From Deltaproteobacteria bacterium RBG_16_64_85 (GTDB taxonomy: Bacteria > Desulfobacterota > Deferrimicrobia > Deferrimicrobiales > Deferrimicrobiaceae), in assembly GCA_001798885.1 (NCBI GenBank), contig MGQW01000019.1, positions 1-61,707 on the forward strand: 61,707 nt of DNA, in the 5' to 3' direction. The notes under the pieces are model-generated. The model saw nothing but the letters and a program-made list of their open reading frames with translations. It was not told the origin of the DNA and made no database searches. Positions 56,308 through 61,460 of the stretch are shown here, piece by piece; the first letter of the stretch is position 1; each line of letters starts with the position of its first letter. The position numbers and the translations under genes are program-made.

Positions 56308-57702
56308 ATGCTTCCGCAAAAGCAGCAAACCACCCTCCCCGTATCGTCGGGGGAGATCTTCCGGATGCTCGCCGCGGCTAGACCGTTCGCACGGAAGGAG
56401 GCGTTTTCGCTCCTTTTGTCCCTCTCCCCGCGGCGCAGGCTGCTCCCCTTCGAGGCGGCGCGGCTCCTTTTGACCGGCGACCCCATGGTGTGGGAGACGG
56501 CCGCCAACATGGCCCGGGCGGTTCGCGAGGAGGTGTTCGGGCGCCGGATCGTCCTCTTCGCCCCCCTCTACCTGTCCAACGAGTGCGGCAACAACTGCCT
56601 CTACTGCGGCTTCCGAAAGGGAAACCGGGAAGCCCGGCGGATCACGCTCTCCCCGGAAGCGGCGGTTGCCGAAGCACGCTTCCTCGAGAAGAAAGGGTAC
56701 CACCGGCTGCTGCTGGTGACCGGGGAGCATCCCCTCCGGACCCGGCCGGGATACATCGCCGACGTCCTGCGGGCGATTTACCGCGAGACGGGGATGCGCA
56801 TCCTCCATGTGAACGCCGCTCCCATGCCGGTCGATGACCTCCGGATGCTGAAAGAAGCCGGCGCGGGCGTTTACCAGGTGTTCCAGGAAACATACCACCC
56901 GGAGACCTACGCGGCGATGCACCCGTCCGGAGCGAAAGCCGACTATGCCTGGCGGCTGACGTGCATGGACCGAGCGATTCCGGCGGGCTTCGGCGACGTC
57001 GGGATCGGGGCGCTCTTGGGCCTGTACGATTACCGGTTCGATGTCCTCTCGGTTCTTCGGCATGCCGAGCACCTTTTCGATTCGTTCGGGACCTTCCCGC
57101 ACACGATTTCCGTGCCGCGCTTCAGGAGGGCGTTCGGCTCCCCGCTCCCGTCCGCGCCCTGCCCGGTGTCCGACGCGGAGTTCGAGAGGATCGTCATCGT
57201 CTACCGGCTATCGGTTCCCTCCGCCGGCGTGGTGGTCACGACCCGCGAGCCCGCCGCGATCCGGGAGCGGGTTCTGGACATCGGGGCGTCCCAGATCAGC
57301 GCCGGATCCAAGACCAATCCCGGGGGATACGCGGAAGGCCTGCGCAGGCACGAGGCCGAGCAGTTCGAGGTGGACGACACCCGGCCGCTTGAGGAAATCG
57401 TCCGGAGGGTGCTCGCCAGAGGGTATCTCCCCTCCCTGTGCACCAGTTGTTACCGGCGGCACCGCACGGGGAACACCTTCACGGAGATGGCGGTGGACGG
57501 TCACATCCGCGATTTCTGCATGCCCAACGCGCTGCTCACGCTGGCCGAATTCGCAATCGCCACGGAGGACAACGCGTTGCGGGAGGAGTGCATCGCCGCC
57601 GTGCGAGACGGCAGGAAGGAACTGGAAGGGTCCCCGCTCTTGCCGGAGTTCGATCGCAAGATCGCGCGCGTGCTCGAGGGCGACAGGGATCTCTTCTTCT
57701 GA
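56308..57702 (+). CDS. thiH: HydG/ThiH-like radical-SAM tyrosine lyase, first gene of the thiamine operon
   Basis: A 464-residue radical-SAM protein. The SAM cluster is Cys93, Cys97 and Cys100 (NECGNNCLYCGF). VTGEHP, VFQETYHPETY, DVGIGALLGLYDYRFDVL and ISVPRFRRA fit the tyrosine-lyase (ThiH/HydG) family. The C-terminus has CTSC then Cys404, spacing CX2CX22C (378, 381, 404), in CYRRHRTG...FCMPNALLTLAEF. That is the auxiliary-cluster motif of HydG, which ThiH lacks. Position behind a TPP riboswitch and before thiS-thiG argues for making dehydroglycine for the thiazole. ATG 56308 follows GGAGG; no HydE or HydF is in the window. Confidence 0.85.
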   Translation: MLPQKQQTTLPVSSGEIFRMLAAARPFARKEAFSLLLSLSPRRRLLPFEAARLLLTGDPMVWETAANMARAVREEVFGRRIVLFAPLYLSNECGNNCLYCGFRKGNREARRITLSPEAAVAEARFLEKKGYHRLLLVTGEHPLRTRPGYIADVLRAIYRETGMRILHVNAAPMPVDDLRMLKEAGAGVYQVFQETYHPETYAAMHPSGAKADYAWRLTCMDRAIPAGFGDVGIGALLGLYDYRFDVLSVLRHAEHLFDSFGTFPHTISVPRFRRAFGSPLPSAPCPVSDAEFERIVIVYRLSVPSAGVVVTTREPAAIRERVLDIGASQISAGSKTNPGGYAEGLRRHEAEQFEVDDTRPLEEIVRRVLARGYLPSLCTSCYRRHRTGNTFTEMAVDGHIRDFCMPNALLTLAEFAIATEDNALREECIAAVRDGRKELEGSPLLPEFDRKIARVLEGDRDLFF

Positions 57703-57715
57703 AGGGCGGGAGGCA

Positions 57716-57916
57716 TTGGAAATCGTCGTCAACGGGGAGCTCCGCGCAGTCGCAGAGGGTGCGACCGTCCGATCGTTGTTGCGCGAACTCGATCTGCCGG
57801 AATCCCGGGTCGCCGTGGAGCGGAACCGGGCCATCGTCCGGAAGACCGATTACGCGGACATGGGGCTTTCCAATGGAGACCGGATCGAGATCGTCACTTT
57901 CGTGGGAGGAGGGTAA
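57716..57916 (+). CDS. thiS: Sulfur-carrier protein ThiS
   Basis: A 66-residue ubiquitin-like protein: [65 protein letters not shown]. The C-terminal Gly-Gly is adenylated and thiolated and delivers sulfur to ThiG. The TTG at 57716 follows GGGAGG closely, so the start is a little uncertain. It ends two bases before thiG. The adenylating enzyme ThiF is not in the window. Confidence 0.93.
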
Positions 57917-57918
57917 CG

Positions 57919-58689
57919 ATGGACACGCCGCTAACGATCTCGGGAAAGACGTTCCGGTCCCGTCTGCTGGTAGGGACGGGGAAATACCCGGACTACCCGA
58001 CGATGGTCAAGGCGCTCGAGGCTTCGGGGGCCGAGATCGTCACGGTGGCCGTGCGAAGGGTCAACCTGGACCGGAGCAAGGAGTCGCTCCTCGACCACAT
58101 CGACCCGAAAAAATACACCCTCCTGCCGAATACGGCAGCCTGCTACACGGCGGACGACGCGGTCCGCACCTGCCTCCTCGCGCGGGAGGCGGGGATGTCG
58201 AACCTGGTGAAGCTCGAGGTGATCGGCGACGAGAAGACCCTCTTCCCCGACACGGAAGGGCTGCTTGCTGCGGCCCGGACGCTTGTCAAGGAAGGGTTCA
58301 TCATTCTCCCCTACACCAACGACGACCCCGTCATGGCGAAGAAGCTCGAGGACGCGGGCTGCGCAGCGGTCATGCCGCTGGCTGCCCCCATCGGCTCCGG
58401 GCTGGGAATCCGGAACCCGTACAACATCCGGATCATCCTCGAGACCGTGAAGGTGCCGGTGATCGTCGACGCGGGCGTGGGGACCGCCTCCGACGCGGCC
58501 GTGGCGATGGAACTCGGGTGCGACGGGGTCCTGATGAACACGGGAATCGCGGGGGCGAAGGACCCCGTGGGGATGGCCGAGGCAATGCGGGAGGCGGTTT
58601 CGGCAGGACGCAAGGCGTTCCTGGCGGGCCGGATCCCGAGGAAGCTCTACGCCACGGCCTCCTCCCCGATCGACGGAACCTTTTTCTGA
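57919..58689 (+). CDS. thiG: Thiazole synthase ThiG
   Basis: A 256-residue TIM-barrel enzyme that forms the thiazole phosphate from deoxyxylulose phosphate, dehydroglycine and ThiS-thiocarboxylate. [77 protein letters not shown], with the Schiff-base lysine, and [34 protein letters not shown] are all family-standard. GGAGGAGGG precedes the ATG. Confidence 0.97.
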
Positions 58690-58700
58690 AAGGGAGGCGG

Positions 58701-59363
58701 ATGAAGATCGACTTCCGGGTCTACCTCCTCACCGACCGGAAGCTTTGCCCCGGAGGGGAGATCCTGGAAACCGTGGAAAGGGCCCTGGACGGCGGCGTCC
58801 GCGCCGTCCAGCTGCGGGAAAAGGATCTTTCGGGGAGGGAGCTGTTTCGCCTGGCGGAGCGGATGCGCAAGCTTACGGAGGGATACGGAGCAAGGCTTCT
58901 GATCAACGACCGCGCGGACGTGGCCATGGGTGTCGGCGCGGACGGCGTCCATCTGGGGGTTCTCTCCATCCCGCCGCGCGAGGCCAGACGCTTCCTCGGC
59001 CCGCAGGCCGTCATCGGGTGCTCCGCGCACAACGCGGAGGAACTGCGGGAAGCCGAGATGGGGGGAGCCGATTTCGTCACGTTCGGGCCGGTCTATCCCA
59101 CGCCTTCCAAGCGTCCTTTCGGCCCGCCGGTGGGGATTCCCGCGCTCGCCTCGGCGTGCCGGACGGCAGGCATCCCGGTCTTCGCCCTCGGGGGAGTCGG
59201 GCCGGGGAACCTGGAGGAGGTCATGCGGGCGGGAAGTTTCGGGATCGCGCTGATTTCGGGGATCGTCGCGGCGGCGGACCCGCGCGCGGCGGCGGCCGCC
59301 CTCACGGAGTACTTTGCGCCAGGCCCGGGCCGCGTAAAAGCAGAAAGGGAAGGTGCGCCATGA
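58701..59363 (+). CDS. thiE: Thiamine-phosphate synthase ThiE
   Basis: A 220-residue TIM-barrel enzyme joining the thiazole and pyrimidine units. YLLTDRKLCPGG, AVQLREKDLSGRELFRLAERM, LLINDRADVAMGVGADGVHLG, VIGCSAHNAEEL, ADFVTFGPVYPTPSK and VFALGGVGPGNLEEVMRAGSFGIALISGI match ThiE step by step. AAAGGGAGGCGG precedes the ATG. The TGA overlaps the thiC ATG. Confidence 0.95.
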   Translation: MKIDFRVYLLTDRKLCPGGEILETVERALDGGVRAVQLREKDLSGRELFRLAERMRKLTEGYGARLLINDRADVAMGVGADGVHLGVLSIPPREARRFLGPQAVIGCSAHNAEELREAEMGGADFVTFGPVYPTPSKRPFGPPVGIPALASACRTAGIPVFALGGVGPGNLEEVMRAGSFGIALISGIVAAADPRAAAAALTEYFAPGPGRVKAEREGAP

Positions 59364-60649
59364 CGTTATTGCATCGCGCGAGAACGGGGAAGCTCCCGGA
59401 GGAAATCGCGAAGGCGGCCGCGGAGGAAGGAGTCTCTCCGGAGAAACTCCGGGAACTGGTCGCCGGAGGGCGAGCCGTGGTCCCCAGAAACCGCAAGCGC
59501 CGCGAAATCCGTCCCGTCGCCATCGGCGAGGGGCTGCGCGTCAAGATCAACGCCAACGTTGGGACCTCCCGCGACCGCACGGACATCGATGTCGAGCTCG
59601 AAAAGACCCGGGTCGCCGTCGCGGCGGGCGCCGACGCCGTGATGGACCTCTCCACAGGGGGACCCATCGATAAGATCCGGCGGGCCATCCTCGCCGAATG
59701 CCCCGTCCCAGTGGGGACCGTCCCCATCTACCAGGCCGCGGTGGAGGCCGCTTCCCGCAGGAAATCCTGGGTCGAGCTCTCCGCCGACGACTTCTTCGAC
59801 GGGATCCTCAAGCAGGCCGAGGACGGCGTCGATTTCATGACCGTCCACTGCGGCGTCACGCGGGAGGCGCTGGCGCGGCTCGTCCGGGAAGGCCGCCGGC
59901 TGGACATCGTGAGCCGCGGCGGATCGCTGCTGGCCGAATGGATGGAGCACAACGGCCGCGAGAACCCGTTCTTCGAGCAGTACGACCGCCTGCTCGAGAT
60001 CTGCAGGGAATACGACATCACCCTCTCCCTCGGGGACGGGCTGCGCCCCGGATGCCTGGCCGACGCCACCGACCGCGCGCAGGTGCACGAGCTGATGACG
60101 CTCGGAGAGCTGACGGAGCGCGCCTGGGAGCGGGACGTGCAGGTGATGATCGAGGGTCCGGGCCACGTGCCGCTTCACCAGATCGCCGCCAACGTACAAA
60201 TGCAGAAGCGCCTCTGCCACGGGGCGCCCTTCTATGTGCTGGGTCCGCTGGTGACCGATATCGCGCCGGGGTACGACCACATCACCTCGGCCATCGGAGG
60301 GGCGATCGCCGCCTGGAGCGGTGCGGACTTCCTGTGCTACGTCACCCCTTCCGAGCACCTGCGCCTCCCGACGGTCGAGGACGTCAAGACCGGCGTGATC
60401 GCTTCGCGCATCGCCGCGCACGCCGCCGACATCGCCAGGGGGATTCCGGGGGCGATCGACCGGGACAACCGGATGGCGGACGCCCGGCGCAAACTCGACT
60501 GGAAGGCTCAGATCGAGCTGTCCATCGACCCGGAAACCGCCCGGGCGATGCGGGGCGGGAGCCTGCCGACGGTCGACGAGGCGGTCTGCACGATGTGCGC
60601 GGACCTCTGCGCCATCAAGACCTCGCAGAAGGCCATCCGGCGCGGCTAG
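59360..60649 (+). CDS. thiC: Phosphomethylpyrimidine synthase ThiC (short form)
   Basis: A 429-residue radical-SAM enzyme converting aminoimidazole ribotide to the thiamine pyrimidine. VKINANVGTSRDRTDIDVELEK, GADAVMDLSTGGPIDKIR, VPIYQAA, DFMTVHCGV, SRGGSLLAEWM, LSLGDGLRPGCLADATDRAQ, EGPGHVPLHQIAANVQMQKRLCHGAPFYVLGPLVTDIAPGYDHIT fit the family. The cluster motif is Cys410-x2-Cys413-x3-Cys417, one residue shorter than the CX2CX4C of E. coli ThiC, as I recall for the short anaerobic clade. BzaF-type enzymes are similar; operon and riboswitch favour ThiC. Confidence 0.95.
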   Translation: MTLLHRARTGKLPEEIAKAAAEEGVSPEKLRELVAGGRAVVPRNRKRREIRPVAIGEGLRVKINANVGTSRDRTDIDVELEKTRVAVAAGADAVMDLSTGGPIDKIRRAILAECPVPVGTVPIYQAAVEAASRRKSWVELSADDFFDGILKQAEDGVDFMTVHCGVTREALARLVREGRRLDIVSRGGSLLAEWMEHNGRENPFFEQYDRLLEICREYDITLSLGDGLRPGCLADATDRAQVHELMTLGELTERAWERDVQVMIEGPGHVPLHQIAANVQMQKRLCHGAPFYVLGPLVTDIAPGYDHITSAIGGAIAAWSGADFLCYVTPSEHLRLPTVEDVKTGVIASRIAAHAADIARGIPGAIDRDNRMADARRKLDWKAQIELSIDPETARAMRGGSLPTVDEAVCTMCADLCAIKTSQKAIRRG

Positions 60650-60653
60650 TGTC

Positions 60654-61460
60654 GTGAGGGGGAAAGGGGGGGCCTGCGGCACCGATCCCACCCCTGTAGC
60701 GTGCGCTCTTTCGCAGCGGGGCCTCTCGATCACCGAATGTTGCGTCGAGGAGCGGACCTTCCTCCCCTACCTTTCGTCCGCAAAAAAACGGGGGGATTTC
60801 TACCGCCTTCTCCACTCGTACGCTTTCCGCCTCTTCCTGCGCGACCTTCTGGCGCTGCGGAACCGCTACCTGCCCGAGCGGCTCGGCCCCTTTTTCTCTC
60901 CCGAATCCGTCGAGGAGATGGCCGGCCAGGTGGAGCGGCTGGCCCTCATCCGGCAGGGCCCCGCCGGAACCATCCGGCTCCTGGCCGAGGCGGTGACCGA
61001 CTTCGGCGACACCTTCGAATGGTTCGTGGCGGAGATCCTTCACCGGCAGTTCCACGCCGACGTGCTGTGGGGGGTGACGATCCCCGGTCTTTCCTGCGGA
61101 GGAGACTTTGACATCCTGGCGCTCCTCTCGGGAAAACTCCTCTACCTCGAGACGAAGACGTCCCCACCCAAGCACATCGAGCAAAAGGAGATGCGCGCGT
61201 TTGTCCAGCGCGTCCGGAAGCTTTCGCCGGACATCGCGATCCTGCTCGTGGACACGCACCTCCGGATGAAGGACAAACTGGTTCCCCTGCTGTCGGAGGC
61301 GCTCCGGGAAGGAGGGGTGAAGGACGCAGAGATGACACGCGTGGAGAAAGAGACGTTCGAATGGAACGGCCGCCTCTTCCTCACGAACTCCAAGCGCGAC
61401 ATCGGCGCGAACCTGGCGCTTTGCCTGAGGAGCTATTTTCTGGACCGTTTTTTCGGCTGA
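60654..61460 (+). CDS. Uncharacterised protein with PD-(D/E)XK-like nuclease motif
   Basis: A 268-residue protein without a recognised family. The N-terminal half (about 40-110) is helical and aromatic (GDFYRLLHSYAFRLFLRDLLALRNRYL). The second half reads DTFEWFVAEILHRQFHADVLWGVTIPGLSCGGDFDILALLSGKLLYLETKTSPPKHIEQKEM: a glutamate helix, then Asp in GGDFDILA, then Glu-x-Lys in LETKTS, the order of the restriction-endonuclease-like fold. Loops after it (IAILLVDTHLRMKDKLVPLL) resemble the continuing sheet. The GTG at 60654, five bases after thiC, is uncertain; the first 30 residues may be untranslated. Confidence 0.65.
   Translation: MRGKGGACGTDPTPVACALSQRGLSITECCVEERTFLPYLSSAKKRGDFYRLLHSYAFRLFLRDLLALRNRYLPERLGPFFSPESVEEMAGQVERLALIRQGPAGTIRLLAEAVTDFGDTFEWFVAEILHRQFHADVLWGVTIPGLSCGGDFDILALLSGKLLYLETKTSPPKHIEQKEMRAFVQRVRKLSPDIAILLVDTHLRMKDKLVPLLSEALREGGVKDAEMTRVEKETFEWNGRLFLTNSKRDIGANLALCLRSYFLDRFFG

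Follow-up and report, generated by a model that had tools for sequence, protein, structure and literature searches.

The first gene of the thiamine operon in the window (the whole 61,707-nucleotide stretch of DNA that was analysed) very likely encodes a HydG-type tyrosine lyase that is dedicated to thiamine synthesis, acting in the role of ThiH and feeding dehydroglycine to ThiG, an assignment that rests on no biochemistry. ThiH and HydG have tyrosine cleavage in common and diverge at dehydroglycine, HydG going on to make CO, cyanide and an Fe(CO)2(CN)Cys synthon. The protein belongs to the HydG family and has the HydG fold, with intact radical-SAM and auxiliary cysteines, the HydG-invariant His265 and conserved tyrosine-binding residues; its gene is under the control of a TPP riboswitch and linked to thiS and thiG, no other dehydroglycine source was found, and its barrel carries a signature specific to its clade. 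By inference, an uncultured bacterial group seems to use a modified HydG instead of ThiH to make the thiazole of vitamin B1. No prior description of a thiamine-linked HydG-type enzyme was found in the open-licence literature, to which the search was limited.

The gene (56308..57702, forward strand, as are all features given below) begins with an ATG start codon and encodes 464 amino acids. The protein scores 378.7 bits against the NCBIfam HydG model (TIGR03955), above the equivalog cut-off of 312.15, and 293.6 bits against the ThiH model (TIGR02351), below the equivalog cut-off of 380. The closest solved structures by sequence are those of HydG (4WCX, 384.9 bits; 4RTB, 358 bits), with ThiH (7PD1) at 178. 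An AlphaFold model of the protein, with a mean pLDDT of 95.8, superimposes on the HydG structure 4WCX over almost its full length (TM 0.93, rmsd 1.8 A), as against a TM of 0.72 for ThiH, which is without the C-terminal domain.

Residue conservation was assessed in sets of 53 thi-clade sequences (some species being represented twice), 103 HydG sequences and 35 ThiH sequences. The radical-SAM cluster motif CX3CX2C (Cys93, Cys97, Cys100; 56584..56607) is invariant in all three sets. The auxiliary-cluster motif CX2CX22C (57439..57519) is exact in the window protein, with codons at 57439-57441 (Cys378), 57448-57450 (Cys381) and 57517-57519 (Cys404); the three cysteines are kept in 52/52 clade members with an intact C-terminus, one further member being cut, and the motif is found in none of the 35 ThiH sequences. 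A chance match to the motif was ruled out by the full-length HydG homology and by this conservation. His265 (57100..57102), counterpart of the invariant HydG histidine in PHTIS(V/F)PR, is present in 53/53 clade and 103/103 HydG sequences and in 0/35 ThiH sequences; its position is the one which we take to be a ligand of the HydG dangler iron. Purifying selection acts on the C-terminal domain (dN/dS about 0.14-0.32), whose rate of evolution exceeds that of the barrel. The tyrosine-binding residues T312, R313, R319, S331 and S334 (57241..57309) are invariant in the clade and correspond to T299, R300, R306, S318 and S321 of TcThiH, where their roles in binding tyrosine have been described (PMC9046217). 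Where TcThiH has Glu 158, the window protein has asparagine (N169); it shares this residue with HydG, and likewise the two phenylalanines of the channel, F84 and F192.

Variation at these sites was also seen elsewhere in the family. About half of the sampled HydG sequences have Ala/Asp/Thr at the tyrosine phenolate-binding positions T312/S331/S334, positions that have been called strictly conserved (PMC9046217); this group (L044-L094, from Bacteroidota and Neomarinimicrobiota, L148, L156 and L160-L165) comes from genomes that do have HydF. A second, divergent HydG-like paralogue (L189-L199, genomes f41 g74) has the auxiliary cysteines, but its residue at the HydG histidine is mostly Arg, with Arg319 replaced by Trp, Ser331 by Leu and Tyr88 by His, and no thi or hyd genes adjoin it.

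The clade differs from HydG at a small number of positions. Four replacements, Y77F, R165I, N167H and T188V, are fixed or nearly so in the clade at sites where 103/103 HydG sequences agree; positions 306, 309 and 392 differ too, and the F77 of the clade is common to ThiH. On the beta-4 strand (I165-L-H167-V-N169, 56800..56814; strand E165-169 in the model) the HydG pattern RxNxN reads IxHxN, with His at position 167 in 53/53 clade sequences versus Asn in 103/103 HydG sequences, and Ile at position 165 in 51/53 versus Arg in 103/103. On beta-5, V188 (56869..56871) is Val in 53/53 clade sequences versus Thr in 103/103 HydG sequences. Positions 165 and 167 are inferred to face the barrel interior, deeper toward the auxiliary site, because N169 on the same strand matches the position in contact with the carboxylate of the substrate; this inference relies on strand parity in a cluster-free model and not on coordinates, and T188V is likewise inferred, from strand parity in the same model, to face the interior.

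The operon is headed by a TPP riboswitch (THI element, RF00059; 56148..56260) that scores 62.4 bits in cmscan against a gathering score of 54.3. Downstream of the HydG-type gene, and on the same strand, lie thiS, encoding a sulfur carrier of 66 aa with a TTG start and a GGG end (57716..57916; PF02597, 59.8 bits), thiG, encoding thiazole synthase (57919..58689; PF05690, 374 bits), thiE, encoding thiamine phosphate synthase (58701..59363; TIGR00693, 196.5 bits, above cut-off), and thiC, encoding phosphomethylpyrimidine synthase (59360..60649; NF009895, 662.6 bits, above cut-off). Directly after thiC is a 268-aa open reading frame (60654-61460) with no match in Pfam or NCBIfam, and in many clade members (L141, L028, L147, L138) the prolipoprotein diacylglyceryl transferase gene lgt lies between thiG and thiE.

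The genome of the window's organism is 99.09% complete. Genome-wide, no second relative of the HydG-type protein (a second ThiH included) and no ThiO were found, HydE and HydF were not found above cut-off, and neither an [FeFe]-hydrogenase catalytic domain nor a [NiFe]-hydrogenase large subunit was found. The ThiS/ThiG pathway is present without ThiH or ThiO, and the HydG-type protein is therefore the only detected candidate for a source of dehydroglycine. In the absence of hydrogenase genes, the genome likewise yielded no protein known to use CO or cyanide; supply of these ligands to a [NiFe]-hydrogenase was ruled out by the missing large subunit. The first-pass annotation had claimed an exact CX2CX22C motif, a gene in the ThiH position of a TPP-riboswitch operon, a HydG-like length of 464 residues, and no HydE, HydF or [FeFe]-hydrogenase gene in the window. 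All four claims held: the motif coordinates were confirmed and its cysteines proved to be conserved throughout the clade, the riboswitch and the thiS-thiG-thiE-thiC order were recovered, the match to 4WCX is almost full-length, and the absence of hydrogenase genes was extended from the window to the whole genome by a search for hydEF and hydA, which the annotation had proposed.

The arrangement is not confined to one contig. A search of GTDB genomes gave 80 relatives; those adjacent to thiG belong to 'Deltaproteobacteria' assemblies, together with a few contigs that were oddly binned. A TPP riboswitch lies upstream in 29/31 clade members checked (the window, 11/13 loci, 15/16 loci, L031 and L129), a count that includes L129 even though its riboswitch is marginally short of the 54.3-bit threshold at 54.2 bits; upstream of HydG-type loci in other contexts the count is 0/15. 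Of the clade, only L031 was found in an unbroken context without thiG beside it; it has its own TPP riboswitch, and its genome encodes a second HydG adjoining hydF. In the 22 genomes with thiG-adjacent loci there is no second ThiH and no HydF above cut-off, although one of them (G012) has a HydF split over two contigs. Across the window's phylum, a thiG-adjacent HydG-type gene is present in 27/395 genomes. None of these 27 carries ThiH, which 95 others carry (Fisher p 0.0007), and none carries HydF, which 53 others carry (Fisher p 0.04). These probabilities are uncorrected for shared ancestry, and most of the genomes are metagenome assemblies, so that each individual absence is soft. In the family to which the window belongs, the HydG-type gene occurs in some genomes and ThiH in others, and no genome has the two together.

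Genomes with two copies separate the two kinds of enzyme. In four such genomes (G012, G013, G017, G031) one copy bears the clade signature and the other the HydG signature, and the HydG-signature copy adjoins a hydE-like gene, with hydF adjoining too in G012 and G017. Two further genomes, G119 (L142/L182) and G362 (L143/L178), were observed to carry, in addition to the thi-linked copy, another HydG that adjoins a HydE-like gene; HydF was not found in either, and G362 is rated 100% complete. An Alkaliphilus HydE-like radical SAM gene (L023:9338-10678) was also seen as a single open reading frame in which a Se/S carrier-like domain (PF11823) forms the N-terminal part.

In phylogenetic analysis the deltaproteobacterial thi-type genes form a monophyletic clade (support 100/100) that falls on the side of HydG, ThiH being set apart as a separate group by a split with full support (100/100). 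The best tree joins the clade to Alkaliphilus-type HydG without support (44/9), and holding the other HydG sequences together, with the clade as their sister, costs 0.8 log units and is not rejected by the AU test (p=0.396). Two trees and the AU test left the rooting undecided, the NosL outgroup branch being too long, and recruitment from HydG and an ancestral form both remain compatible with the data. The first-pass annotation had suggested a HydG relative recruited to thiazole synthesis, an enzyme with both functions or an ancestral form, and had called for a phylogeny with ThiH and HydG. Family scores, fold, operon, riboswitch, clade conservation and mutual exclusion with ThiH all support the core of that suggestion, a HydG-type protein doing the job of ThiH; the phylogeny places the protein on the HydG side of the split, its rooting relative to HydG stays undecided, and no choice can be made between the recruited and the ancestral form. 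The refuting case that it had named combined a place in the HydG clade with the presence of hydEF and hydA at other loci and of a separate ThiH or ThiO; this case was looked for and does not apply to the window's genome.

The neighbouring ThiG proteins fall into two unmixed groups, one adjacent to HydG-type genes and one adjacent to ThiH (split support 100). Identity to the window ThiG is 69-95% in the first group versus 45-55% in the second. The nearest structure to the window ThiG is that of Pseudomonas aeruginosa ThiG (1WV2), at 348.7 bits; a ThiH-partner ThiG, at 228 bits, is not closest to the P. aeruginosa protein. P. aeruginosa uses ThiO. The split among ThiG proteins and the P. aeruginosa-like character of this one indicate, therefore, that the entire thiazole module is distinct.

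From family knowledge, the enzyme would cleave SAM to a 5'-deoxyadenosyl radical and cut tyrosine to p-cresol and dehydroglycine. The genetics suggest that dehydroglycine would then be passed to ThiG and not degraded to CO and cyanide, the delivery itself being an inference. The enzyme probably still binds the auxiliary [4Fe-4S] cluster and makes use of it, which is argued from the full conservation of the cluster ligands and the purifying selection on the C-terminal domain and has not been shown. The cluster may donate an electron to quench the p-cresyl radical, serve as a site for docking, holding or protecting dehydroglycine, or take part in residual formation of CO and cyanide. Since the changes in the interior are fixed, it can be argued that CO and cyanide formation is altered; R165I, N167H and T188V would have steered the breakdown chemistry away from production of the hydrogenase synthon. 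That the auxiliary ligands are all conserved could also mean that CO and cyanide chemistry continues. A bolder reading has the HydG-type auxiliary site, altered by the fixed N-to-His and R-to-Ile changes in the barrel, repurposed for vitamin B1, holding or stabilising dehydroglycine or quenching the p-cresyl radical; the balance tips slightly against it. If it is true, ThiH and ThiO would be joined by a third type of enzyme for the thiazole imine, and this one would be a tyrosine lyase with two clusters whose reaction halts before CO and cyanide.

Among the alternatives, the one that survives best is that of an ancestral form, in which the clade is sister to all HydG and a thiamine enzyme of this kind, with its C-terminal cluster, gave rise to HydG. 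This remains possible: it withstands the AU test, and F77 is shared by the clade and ThiH. Against it, the best tree pairs the clade with Alkaliphilus-type HydG (though without support), the clade has a narrow range (one phylum besides the oddly binned contigs) and HydG a broad one, and the ThiG of the clade is not of the ThiH-partner kind. A bifunctional enzyme, which would deliver dehydroglycine to ThiG and convert part of it to CO and cyanide at the auxiliary-cluster iron for an unidentified acceptor, is unlikely, although sequence cannot decide the matter. In its favour are the conservation of all the auxiliary ligands and His265, the retention of F84 and F192 in the channel, as in HydG, and the purifying selection on the C-terminal domain; against it, the genome has no known acceptor of CO or cyanide, both [FeFe]- and [NiFe]-hydrogenase being absent, positions invariant in 103 HydG sequences have been replaced, and TPP control would couple cyanide output to the demand for B1. 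It is also unlikely that the C-terminal domain is a structural leftover that binds a plain [4Fe-4S] cluster or none and serves only in folding or ThiG docking. The faster evolution of this domain relative to the barrel and the missing hydrogenase genes would fit such a history, but loss of the dangler-iron histidine and of some cysteines would be expected, and these are kept (53/53 and 52/52, respectively) despite an identity of only 46-55% between the window protein and the far branches of the clade. An ordinary hydrogenase-maturation HydG that lies in a thiamine operon by chance passes the HydG equivalog cut-off and is nevertheless all but excluded, having been rejected on genome content (no HydE, HydF or hydrogenase) and on recurrence (27 genomes, the riboswitch nearly always present), with a distinct signature and a separate canonical HydG where genomes carry both.

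If the enzyme is a thiamine-dedicated lyase, as preferred here, the clade is a natural set of enzymes that combine the second site of HydG with, by context, the job of ThiH, and that have few fixed differences from HydG; what causes dehydroglycine release as opposed to CO and cyanide formation is therefore testable by residue swaps. The second iron-sulfur site seems to be retained in this bacterial group although there is no hydrogenase to build. The clade gene fills a missing thiazole step in many deltaproteobacterial genomes, and automatic annotation will label such genes hydrogenase maturases, which may falsely imply hydrogen metabolism.

With regard to known systems, the window protein is closest to HydG (TIGR03955; 4WCX, 4RTB), which it resembles in fold (TM 0.93), length, the CX3CX2C and CX2CX22C motifs, the His265 equivalent, the F/F channel residues, N169 and a score above the HydG equivalog cut-off. 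It differs from HydG in its place in a TPP-riboswitch thiamine operon, in a genome without HydE, HydF or hydrogenase, and in having, with its clade, I, H, V and F where HydG has R165, N167, T188 and Y77 (103/103; window numbering). ThiH (TIGR02351; 7PD1) is matched in operon position and, by inference, in product; the tyrosine-binding T312, R313, R319, S331 and S334 are kept, and the window-type gene and ThiH are mutually exclusive across genomes. In contrast to ThiH, the protein scores below the ThiH cut-off, possesses a C-terminal cluster domain absent from ThiH, carries N169 where ThiH has Glu (35/35), and is partnered by another kind of ThiG. The tryptophan lyase NosL (4R33, 6HTK) shares the radical-SAM barrel family, but has other substrate residues, no auxiliary cluster domain and a far lower score (85 bits). 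ThiO, the glycine oxidase route, makes the same imine in the same metabolic slot, and the window ThiG is nearest to that of P. aeruginosa; ThiO itself is an unrelated flavoprotein and was not found in the window's genome. The comparison suggests, by inference, a HydG-type lyase that behaves as if it had taken the slot of ThiO in an anaerobic lineage.
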